Source: Micromonosporaceae bacterium
GTDB lineage: Bacteria; Actinomycetota; Actinomycetes; Mycobacteriales; Micromonosporaceae
NCBI GenBank assembly: GCA_007130245.1
Contig: SLSW01000128.1
Coordinates: forward strand, 1 to 33,308
Direction of reading: 5' to 3'
DNA length: 33,308 nt
The notes under the pieces are model-generated. The model saw only the letters and a list, made by a program, of their open reading frames with translations. It searched no databases and had not been told where the DNA came from. Of the stretch, positions 13,966 through 17,208 are shown piece by piece; positions within the stretch are counted from its first letter, which is position 1; the number at the start of each line of letters is the position of its first letter. A program made the position numbers and the translations under genes.

Positions 13966-14673
13966 TCAGTACGGGTCGCGGCGCGGGATCGGCGGATGCA
14001 GCACGCGGGCCGGACCGGGCCGGTAGAGCGGGGCCGGACCGCCGGCGCCACCGCTGGTCGTACCCCCGGTCGCGACCACAAACCCCGCGGCCGAGGCGAC
14101 GGCACGGTGGAAGTCGGCCGGGTCGAGCCGGGTGCCCCAGATCGTCTCGTACGTCTCGCGCAGCTGGTCGATCGTGAACTCCGGCGGGCAGAAGGTGGTC
14201 GCCAGCGGCGTGTGTTCCAGCATGGACCGTGCCCGCTCCACCGCGTCGGCGAGGATCCGGTGGTGGTCGAACGCCAGATCCTCGGCGTCGATGTCGGCGA
14301 CCGGGCGCCACTGTGCGGCGGCCGCGTCGGTGCCGGCGGTCGGGGTGGGCAGGTCGGGCAGCAGGGCCAGGTACGCCACGGTGACCACCCGCCCGCGCGG
14401 GTCCCGCCCCGGGGTGCCGTAGCTGGCCAGCTGCTCGAGGTGCCCGGCCGGCTCGGCCAGCCCGGTCTCCTCGACGAGCTCCCGTTCGGCGGCGGTGTCC
14501 AGATCCTCGTCGACGCGGACGAACCCGCCCGGTAATGCCCACCGGTCGGCGTACGGCTCGGTGCCGCGCCGGATCAGCAGCACGTTGAGCGCGCCGCCGA
14601 CGATGGTGAACACCACAAGGTCGACGGTGACCGCGAACGCCGGATGCTCAGACGACACCGGAACAATCACCAC
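13966..14673 (-). CDS. NUDIX domain protein with C-terminal winged-helix-like region (NrtR-like)
   Basis: NUDIX box GGFVRVDEDLDTAAERELVEETGL; C-terminal TFCPPEFTIDQLRETYETIWGTRLDPADFHRAV, as in NrtR-type regulators. Confidence 0.85.
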   Translation of the reverse strand: MVIVPVSSEHPAFAVTVDLVVFTIVGGALNVLLIRRGTEPYADRWALPGGFVRVDEDLDTAAERELVEETGLAEPAGHLEQLASYGTPGRDPRGRVVTVAYLALLPDLPTPTAGTDAAAAQWRPVADIDAEDLAFDHHRILADAVERARSMLEHTPLATTFCPPEFTIDQLRETYETIWGTRLDPADFHRAVASAAGFVVATGGTTSGGAGGPAPLYRPGPARVLHPPIPRRDPY

Positions 14674-14719
14674 CTTTCACCGGAAAGCTAGCACCTTTGC
14701 TGCCCGCTCGGCGCCCGGT

Positions 14720-14792
14720 GATCGGTGCCAGTGGACGCGCTACTCGACGATCCGCGCCGGATCGTGGGGTAGCCGGTCCACCGGCGCCGATC
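14720..14792. repeat. 73-nt hairpin repeat, copy A
   Basis: GATCGGTGCCAGTGGACGCGCTACTCGACGATCCGCGCCGGATCGTGGGGTAGCCGGTCCACCGGCGCCGATC; 31 of 35 symmetric positions pair (2 as G-U) around a CGC loop; 69/73 identical to copy B; overlaps the stop codon of the DUF559 gene. Confidence 0.93.
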
Positions 14793-15753
14793 ACGCGAGT
14801 GGGACCGGGCCAGCGGCTCCGACAGCGGCACCAGACAGCCTCGCGGCCACGATCGCGCGGACCTGCGCCCGTACCACTTCCGGGGTGAACACCAGCTGGT
14901 CGTGAGTGAAACGGACCACCATGATCCCCATCGCGGCCAGTTCCGCGTCCCGCCGCGCGTCCCGCTCCCTGGCCGCCGTCGAGTGGTGCCACTTGGCGCC
15001 GTCGAGCTCGAAGTTCACCCGCGAACGCGGGCAGTAGACATCAAGGTAGACCGATCGGGCCCCTACCCTCACCCGTACCTGGCGGACGAGCCTCGGCATG
15101 TCCGGACCGGTGAACACGCGCTCGTATCCCCACAGCTCGAGTTCGCTGCGGCAGCCCAGGTCCAGCAGGTTCACCAGCCGCAGCAACTCGAATCGACCCG
15201 GGACGTTGACGTTCGCCTCAGCCGCCGCACGCAACCGCGCCGGTGTGGTGAGCCGGTCGCCGACCGATGCGATCACCGCCGCGCGGCGCGCGTCCCGCGG
15301 CAGCAGCAGCCAGGAGTCGACGGCGGCCTGCTCTACCCGGCACACCGGTATCCCGCGGCGGACCACGACGCCTGAGCCGGTCGGGTGGAATCCGCGACGT
15401 CGGTGCACGACGACCCCGGCCGTCCCGCGCGGGCGCTGGCTGGCGGGCACCAACACGTGCACCGGGACGCCTGAAGTCCCTGCCCCGTCGTGCGGACCGG
15501 GAAGGTTCCACACCCGCAACGCCGTGAGGTGGCTCAACGCCGCCGCGGGACCGCCGTAGCGCACGGCCGCCCGCGCCTGTGTCCACCACTCGCCGGCCCG
15601 GGCGGGATCCACGTAGACCCGCGGGAACATCCGGAGCACCGCACCGGTGCGCACCGCATGGTCGAGCACGTGATGCGGCATCCGCGCCAGCGCCTCGCCA
15701 CGGGACACCACACCCTCGTTCTCCGCGAGCAGCGCGGCCAGACTCCGGTTCAC
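14791..15753 (-). CDS. AbiEi-like N-terminal domain / DUF559 (PD-(D/E)XK-like) C-terminal protein
   Basis: N-term SLAALLAENEGVVSRGEALARMPHHVLDHAVRTGAVLRMFPRVYVDP; C-term VNFELDGAKWHHSTAARERDARRDAELAAMGIMVVRFTHDQL typical of DUF559/Vsr-like folds. Confidence 0.87.
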   Translation of the reverse strand: MNRSLAALLAENEGVVSRGEALARMPHHVLDHAVRTGAVLRMFPRVYVDPARAGEWWTQARAAVRYGGPAAALSHLTALRVWNLPGPHDGAGTSGVPVHVLVPASQRPRGTAGVVVHRRRGFHPTGSGVVVRRGIPVCRVEQAAVDSWLLLPRDARRAAVIASVGDRLTTPARLRAAAEANVNVPGRFELLRLVNLLDLGCRSELELWGYERVFTGPDMPRLVRQVRVRVGARSVYLDVYCPRSRVNFELDGAKWHHSTAARERDARRDAELAAMGIMVVRFTHDQLVFTPEVVRAQVRAIVAARLSGAAVGAAGPVPLA

Positions 15754-15894
15754 GCCGCGGAGTCAACCGGGGTAGGCCGGACAGGTCCACCGGCGAGGGC
15801 GGCACGTGTGGACACGCGGGTTGCTGTGGACAGTCACCGGACCGGCCGGGAATGTGCTAGGGAGGTTGAGCGGGAACCGCCCAGTTCCGTCAGA

Positions 15895-15967
15895 GATCGG
15901 TGCCAGTGGACGCGCTACTCGACGATCCGCGCCGGATCGTGGGGTACCGGGTCCACTGGTGCCGATC
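15895..15967. repeat. 73-nt hairpin repeat, copy B
   Basis: GATCGGTGCCAGTGGACGCGCTACTCGACGATCCGCGCCGGATCGTGGGGTACCGGGTCCACTGGTGCCGATC; 32 of 35 symmetric positions pair (3 as G-U); first 52 nt identical to copy A. Confidence 0.93.
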
Positions 15968-15984: not shown

Positions 15985-17208
15985 TCAGCCCTGGCGGGGA
16001 ATCCCGTACGGTTCGCCCTTGCCCTCGTCCAACCATGCGCTGACCGCGACCTCGTCACTCGGGTCCACGCCCTCGGCCACCATCTGGCTCGCGGCCGACA
16101 CCGCCGCGCTGCGCCGCTCACCGGTGCGGTGCAGCCGTGCGAACTCGGGCGCCATCGAGTCGATCGCGCGGGCGATCTCCGCCACCGCGGCCGGTGGCAG
16201 GCCGCGCCGCTCCGCGGCCCAGCTGGTCCAGGCACGCAGCACCGGCGGCAGCGCGGTCACGTCGTCGTCGTCCAGGATCGCGCGGCGGTGCACCCAGTCC
16301 AGCAGGAACAACCCGACCACCGCGGGGCTCCACCGCAGCGGGTCGGTGTCCGGGGCGTCGCGCGCGAAGTCGAGGATCAGCTGAACGGCGTACCGGAGCG
16401 CTGCTTCCGCCTGGTCGCTGTCGCGGTCCAGGCCGGCGGCGTGCGCCGAGCCGAGGAACGCCCGCGCCAGTGCGTCCGGGTCGGGCGACGCGCCGGCAGC
16501 GTCCCCGCTACCCGGCGCGGCGCCGTTGGCGGGCATCCCGGCCAGCCGGGCCGCCACCAGCGCCCGGTCGGTGGCCAGCTCCCCCTCCGACGGCAGCGCC
16601 GAGAGGCGGTCCGTGATCTCCAGATAGAAGCTCACCTGCGCCCGCCAGGCCGCCGGGTCCACCTCGGTGAACCAGATCATCTCGTCGGTGCCGGCGGCCG
16701 CCCGCACCTCGTCCAACACCGTGTGCGCCGGACGGCCGACGAACAGGTCCTTGACGATGCCGACGTTGTGGTCCACCAGCGCCACCACGGCGTGCTCGCC
16801 CCCGCCGACGTCCGGATCGTCGTAGGTGAACACCGCCAGGTAGCTGGTCTGGTCGCCGTACACATCGCCGTACGCCCAGGTGCCCACCGTGCGCGCCCGG
16901 CCGAGCTGCCCCGCCCAGGGCGCCGGGTCCGTGCCGGGTATGACCCGGGCGGCACCGGTGGCGTCGGGCACGAGCGCCGCGAAAACGCTGCGGATCGCCC
17001 GCGCGGACACGGTGCGCCGGCGGGAGGTGGCGGCGAGGAACTCGCCGACGAAGTCGCGCACCGCCTCCGGCCGGGGCGCGTCGGCCACCGCGTACACGCT
17101 GCCCAGTAACGCCGCGCCCAGCATCTCGGCGTCCAGCGCGGTGGGCACCTTCGCGAGGTCACGGGCGGCGTGCAGGACCGCTTCGTGTGGGGTCCGGGGT
17201 GTCGCCAT
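15985..17208 (-). CDS. Hypothetical protein (407 aa)
   Basis: Long ORF 9 nt downstream of the membrane-protein gene stop; MATPRTPHEAVLHAARDLAKVPTALDAEMLGAALLG...; no family assigned confidently. Confidence 0.8.
   Translation of the reverse strand: MATPRTPHEAVLHAARDLAKVPTALDAEMLGAALLGSVYAVADAPRPEAVRDFVGEFLAATSRRRTVSARAIRSVFAALVPDATGAARVIPGTDPAPWAGQLGRARTVGTWAYGDVYGDQTSYLAVFTYDDPDVGGGEHAVVALVDHNVGIVKDLFVGRPAHTVLDEVRAAAGTDEMIWFTEVDPAAWRAQVSFYLEITDRLSALPSEGELATDRALVAARLAGMPANGAAPGSGDAAGASPDPDALARAFLGSAHAAGLDRDSDQAEAALRYAVQLILDFARDAPDTDPLRWSPAVVGLFLLDWVHRRAILDDDDVTALPPVLRAWTSWAAERRGLPPAAVAEIARAIDSMAPEFARLHRTGERRSAAVSAASQMVAEGVDPSDEVAVSAWLDEGKGEPYGIPRQG

Follow-up and report, generated by a model that had tools for sequence, protein, structure and literature searches.

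Predicted DUF559 nuclease genes recur between cognate, dispersed palindromes in soil actinobacteria

We find that a predicted nuclease gene of the DUF559 family lies alone between two near-identical palindromes in a Micromonosporaceae genome, and that such pairs of gene and palindrome recur across actinomycetes. DUF559 proteins are common in actinobacteria and are labelled 'unknown function' or orphan antitoxins. The window, meaning the whole 33,308-nt stretch of DNA analysed, is contig C132 of an assembly of 4.15 Mb in 377 contigs (genome G000). We put at roughly 60% the probability that it contains an instance of a recurring two-part system, in which an AbiEi-DUF559 gene sits between cognate palindromes, further copies are dispersed in the genome, and the nuclease homes through the palindromes and homogenises them. 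Below we document the architecture, its recurrence, the specificity of the association, the dispersal of the palindromes, their presence/absence polymorphism and the concerted change of their arms.

Results

Two hairpins enclose a single DUF559 gene

The initial annotation described two 73-nt hairpins with 69 matching positions that bracket the DUF559 gene alone, and the sequence, a repeat search and folding bear this out. Copies A and B match at 69/73 positions, with the first 52 bases identical by eye, and the repeat search lengthened the pair to 95 nt (87%). When folded as DNA, both strands of A and B are far beyond dinucleotide shuffles (z -4.4 to -6.0). A comparison of the palindromes with Rfam gave zero matches. 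The DUF559 gene is the single gene between the two copies (Table 1). Its stop codon (TCA on the plus strand, 14791-14793) had been placed within copy A; two of its three bases lie in the 73 nt, and all three are included once the stem is extended by one further base pair per side (14719-14793). Neither an AbiEii-type partner nor a transposase adjoins the gene in the window, as was stated initially.

Table 1. Features of the window that make up the palindrome-gene-palindrome cassette
Feature	Position	Strand	Basis and remarks
Hairpin copy A	14720..14792	.	Imperfect palindrome overlapping the DUF559 stop codon; same family as B and five other genome sites
DUF559 nuclease gene, 320 aa	14791..15753	-	ORF; Pfam DUF559 E 1e-8; AlphaFold pLDDT 93.6
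Vsr/EDxHD-like nuclease domain (predicted), residues 202-303	14845..15150	-	3hrl aligned at profile positions 202-303; Foldseek 3r3p, 3hrl
AbiEi-antitoxin-like N-terminal part (predicted), residues 5-180	15214..15741	-	PADLOC AbiEi E 1.1e-10; Foldseek 6y8q E 3.5e-6
Hairpin copy B	15895..15967	.	142 nt 5' of the DUF559 start; direct repeat of A

Adjoining the cassette is a gene for a NUDIX protein with an NrtR-type winged helix, of the ADP-ribose-responsive repressor kind (13966-14673). The other neighbour, at 15985-17208, encodes a 407-aa protein with no Pfam or NCBIfam match. The 407-aa gene is conserved in Micromonosporaceae, beside two GTPase-like genes and dnaK; it is kept in relatives, and its downstream side is different in each relative read. 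A NUDIX/NrtR gene adjoining the 407-aa gene was not found in the same-genus genomes G001 and G002. In G005 alone the two genes follow the window's order, separated by other genes and with no DUF559 gene. The neighbourhood is rearranged in relatives, and none of those read offers a clean empty site for the window locus.

The protein is predicted to join an AbiEi-like domain to a nuclease

According to profile and fold comparisons, the product of the gene between the hairpins begins with a domain resembling the AbiEi antitoxin and continues into a DUF559 nuclease, whose fold is that of Vsr and the EDxHD homing endonucleases. The AbiEi/DUF559 identity given in the initial annotation was thereby upheld, by Pfam for DUF559 (E 1e-8) and by PADLOC for the AbiEi-like N-terminus (E 1e-10). 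The best PDB matches of the AlphaFold model found by Foldseek were 6y8q (AbiEi, S. agalactiae) and 3r3p (I-Bth0305I catalytic domain, prob 1.0), and a further match, 3hrl, spans the nuclease domain (TM 0.80 of target). Pfam reports AbiEi_4 in 25/54 relatives, and DUF559 in the window protein. Residues E206, D238, E249, D251, H256 and R268 are conserved in the nuclease domain, and catalytic residues are retained in palindrome-flanked members. AbiEi antitoxins bind inverted repeats and autoregulate through them (PMC7319586, PMC3985639), which suggests by analogy how the AbiEi-like part might recognise a palindrome.

Flanking palindromes recur at DUF559 genes

The sample consisted of DUF559 relatives from 60 relative genomes and 80 named loci (Micromonosporaceae, Geodermatophilaceae, Frankiaceae). 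We aligned the 500 nt upstream of each gene, on both strands, with the stretch that begins 40 nt ahead of its stop codon and ends 500 nt past it; other genes of the same loci served as controls, and the cut-off was a score of at least 36. Of 118 DUF559 loci, 33 reached this score (about 31-33, as 2 of them are duplicates); among the 662 control genes, 5 did so (2/348 counted and 3/314 read off the list of top controls; Fisher p = 3e-24). A few pairs above the cut-off (e.g. at locus L052) resemble similarity of coding sequence more than palindromes. Both subsets of the sample agree. Likewise, a measure of hairpins only, requiring at least 13 net pairs on each side, picked out 20/119 DUF559 loci and 0/150 controls. 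The case that would have spoken against the initial annotation, hairpins scattered with no link to DUF559 genes, thus did not arise; the link is recurrent and statistically strong.

Alignments show that the palindrome is different at each gene and near-identical on the two sides of that gene. Its total length is about 40-75 nt, and several families, the window's included, end TGATC...GATCA. In most loci the 3' copy overlaps the stop codon or lies directly against it (in Catellatospora it is at about +75 nt), and in most positive loci the 5' copy precedes the start by 60-350 nt; their mutual orientation is direct at some loci and inverted at others. Counting against our reading, some 70% of DUF559 loci, most Micromonospora sensu stricto included, are without flanking palindromes at the sensitivity of the test.

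Each gene has its own palindrome family

The hairpin family of the window has seven strong sites in G000 (two in the window, two on contig C198 and one each on C89, C200 and C123), making it a small dispersed family. A search of the kind suggested in the initial annotation recovered these seven sites in the own genome and, at full length, none in the 149 other sampled genomes of the bacterial family, so that at full length the hairpin family was seen in one genome among 150.

Three DUF559 relatives accompany the window gene in G000. The paralogue on contig C189 has GATCCAGTTCCC...GGGAACTGGATC upstream and a degraded copy downstream, which begins inside the stop codon. The paralogue on C343 has AGGGTCCCTTC-type hairpins on either side. 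The palindromes of both genes differ in sequence from the window hairpin. The fourth DUF559 gene of the genome reaches a contig end. Around the gene on C343 (locus L032) GGGTCCC-centred hairpins form clusters, several per side and not one, at positions 1310-1440 and 2590-2760 of that locus.

Seventeen palindromes were concatenated and searched in eleven genomes, and all matches listed came from the genome that carries the corresponding gene; several of the 17 families reach dozens of copies. Furthermore, genomes with two or three such genes each (G018, G052, G053, G059) hold a separate palindrome family per DUF559 gene. Together the results show that one gene corresponds to one palindrome family, dispersed in its own genome.

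Two observations on assemblies belong here. On the closed chromosome of G002, of the same genus, a near-perfect 66-nt palindrome (GTGATCAACTTCCCTGGAGCTGTACGACACGC...) surrounds a DUF559 gene (L093/L041) and has further chromosomal copies. Draft assemblies break immediately beside the DUF559 gene at the starts of loci L112, L122, L143, L157 and L164, as is expected if the flanks are repeats.

Dispersed palindromes change in concert in Catellatospora

C. coxensis, C. sichuanensis and C. methionotrophica each carry some 40-60 palindrome copies with stems of 23 bp. These copies align across the palindrome alone, and their flanks are unrelated. In the alignment 99.4% of cells are paired, and three pairs carry double changes (covariation, 0/500 shuffles). 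The DUF559 gene itself occupies an identical position in all five Catellatospora species. At one dispersed site (L233) all five species have a palindrome; in C. sp. KI3 and C. tritici its inner arm is that of the palindrome linked to their own DUF559 gene, and the remaining three species likewise carry theirs. The dispersed palindromes thus undergo concerted change, both arms changing together and tracking the lineage's own DUF559 type. A second site (L234) is occupied in C. coxensis, empty in C. sichuanensis, KI3 and C. tritici, and holds a different palindrome in C. methionotrophica. Intergenic sequence at orthologous sites has diverged so far that insertion junctions are unreadable, as are any target-site duplications of the kind that a MITE or other non-autonomous DNA transposon would leave.

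Other palindromes are seen at such sites as well. In C. tritici, loci L259 (G064 C1:833300-834300) and L247 (G064 C23:525400-526200) hold GCCGGGCAATCGGGC...GCCCGATTGCCCGGC where relatives hold the common palindrome, which may mean that sites of this kind are also used by a second family. A further long palindrome, the third, is AAGATCGCTGCTTCGGGTC...GACCCGAGGCAGCGATCTT at L242 of C. methionotrophica (G062 C14:51400-52300); the corresponding spacer of C. coxensis holds the common family.

Occupied, single-palindrome and empty sites in Geodermatophilaceae

Geodermatophilaceae carry DUF559 at a shared site, D. Some species also have it at sites A, B and C; in other species the two flanks of such a site adjoin each other (a gap of 410-630 nt versus about 1500). 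Two genomes with DUF559 at A or B also carry it at D, indicating that the genes at A and B are extra copies. Site A reads palindrome-gene-palindrome in Geodermatophilus sp. DSM 45219 and G. chilensis. In G. tzadiensis the spacer lacks the gene and holds a single palindrome of the type concerned, and in G. poikilotrophus and G. telluris it has neither. At the empty sites B and C no single palindromes were found. The three states of site A fit arrival of the gene in a resident palindrome, or its loss by recombination between the two copies. A site with a single hairpin and no gene, which the initial annotation had envisaged for the window locus, is therefore present in a Geodermatophilus relative and was not seen at the window locus. 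In most lineages the position of the gene is conserved, i.e. inheritance is largely vertical, which counts against our reading.

Discussion

In the mechanism that we favour, the AbiEi-like part would bind the inverted repeat and the Vsr/EDxHD-type nuclease would nick or cut within the palindrome or next to it. With another copy as the template for repair, the palindrome family would be homogenised. Where the donor is the palindrome-gene-palindrome cassette, the gene would occasionally be copied into a palindrome elsewhere, a homing event with the palindromes as homology arms. Insertion of new palindromes would need an extra joining step, such as capture of a hairpin at a break during repair, and this is the least certain step; that a nuclease without strand-transfer activity cannot alone explain insertion at new sites counts against the mechanism, as do the modest dispersal of the window family (7 copies), the failure to find an empty site for its locus in the relatives read, and the unreadable junctions in Catellatospora. 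The initial annotation had proposed a cassette at a resident hairpin, or dispersed palindromes exploited by the gene. The dispersal and the DUF559 link were both found, and the action of the protein on the hairpin is a step that we infer.

The palindrome could instead be an autoregulatory site of the AbiEi-like domain, its dispersed copies forming a regulon or decoys, with the nuclease acting elsewhere, for example on foreign DNA. We consider this operator model improbable. AbiEi antitoxins do autoregulate via inverted repeats (PMC7319586, PMC3985639), and most positive loci do have a palindrome upstream of the start; the second copy, however, lies at the stop codon and not in the promoter, and the Catellatospora stems far exceed what an operator needs. 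Among the dispersed copies, 27 of 29 examined sites are intergenic (four of the 29 belong to the window family in G000), and 13 of these 27 lie between convergent genes but only 2 between divergent genes, which argues against operators. The presence/absence polymorphism and the three-state Geodermatophilus site do so too.

An equally doubtful alternative takes the palindromes for common dispersed repeats or terminators, in or beside which the DUF559 gene tends to land by one-way homing, without spreading them. Their intergenic position, often 3' of genes, and the existence of a single-palindrome site without a gene agree with such hitchhiking. Against it, genomes with several DUF559 genes hold one palindrome family for each, dispersed palindromes track the DUF559 type of their lineage, and the window family is found in its own genome alone among 150; moreover, multi-copy sequence families are unlike ordinary terminators. 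It is very improbable that a classical HUH transposase (RAYT/TnpA-REP), or another transposase elsewhere in the genome, spreads the palindromes as REPs: the layout resembles REPtrons (PMC8266576) and Y1_Tnp genes are present in Catellatospora genomes G060-G062, but Y1_Tnp is absent from 10/14 palindrome-bearing genomes, the window's included, so that a HUH transposase is rejected as the cause for most genomes, and the Y1_Tnp proteins of G061 and G062 have the size of IS200 transposases (150-157 aa).

The REPtron is the closest known system to the proposed pairing of nuclease gene and palindromes, which shares the REPtron layout without being a REPtron itself. In a REPtron, a TnpA-REP/RAYT gene lies between cognate REP palindromes that are dispersed intergenically; gene and palindrome co-evolve, and the gene is mostly single-copy and vertically inherited (PMC8266576). 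Similarly, the DUF559 gene is flanked by cognate palindromes, and its genome has more of them scattered between genes. In contrast, the DUF559 gene is predicted to encode an AbiEi-DUF559 fusion of Vsr/EDxHD fold with no HUH (Y1) domain, and many of the palindrome families have TGATC ends instead of the GTAG/CGTC foot; inspected by eye, alignments and pair listings showed no shared GTAG/CGTC tag at the foot.

EDxHD homing endonucleases such as I-Bth0305I resemble the DUF559 protein in the predicted Vsr-like C-terminal fold, with conserved E206, D238, E249, D251 and H256, and in the presence of the gene at extra sites alongside empty and single-palindrome sites in relatives. A homing endonuclease gene is copied into an empty allele once that allele is cut; for the DUF559 gene, the empty and single-palindrome sites are the observations that bear on such copying. 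The DUF559 gene differs in lying outside any intron, intein or phage gene and in being associated with a palindrome family spread over the genome, not with a single conserved target. With AbiEi, the antitoxin of the type IV system AbiE, the protein shares its N-terminal two thirds by profile and fold, but the window protein appears fused to a nuclease and has no AbiEii nucleotidyltransferase partner at the locus, where the neighbours are the NUDIX/NrtR-type and 407-aa genes. Stand-alone DUF559/Vsr-like proteins (PRK09767, 3hrl) have the catalytic domain in common with it and lack the AbiEi-like domain. Our literature search, which covered sources other than preprints and most subscription journals, found nothing linking DUF559 to palindromes or to actinobacterial REPs.

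The odds are about even that these pairs represent a class of element, selfish or domesticated, that has not been described before: a nuclease without transposase chemistry would spread palindromes throughout the genome, keep them alike and use them for homing, with a separate palindrome for each nuclease gene. For DUF559 proteins, the association supplies a concrete candidate substrate, the matching palindrome of each gene. If the proposed mechanism is true, REP-like palindrome systems would have evolved repeatedly around unrelated enzymes, and the palindromes scattered between genes in high-GC genomes without HUH transposases would be accounted for. Together our data on recurrent pairs of nuclease gene and palindrome in soil actinobacteria suggest that short palindromes spread, and stay alike, in a manner not described before.
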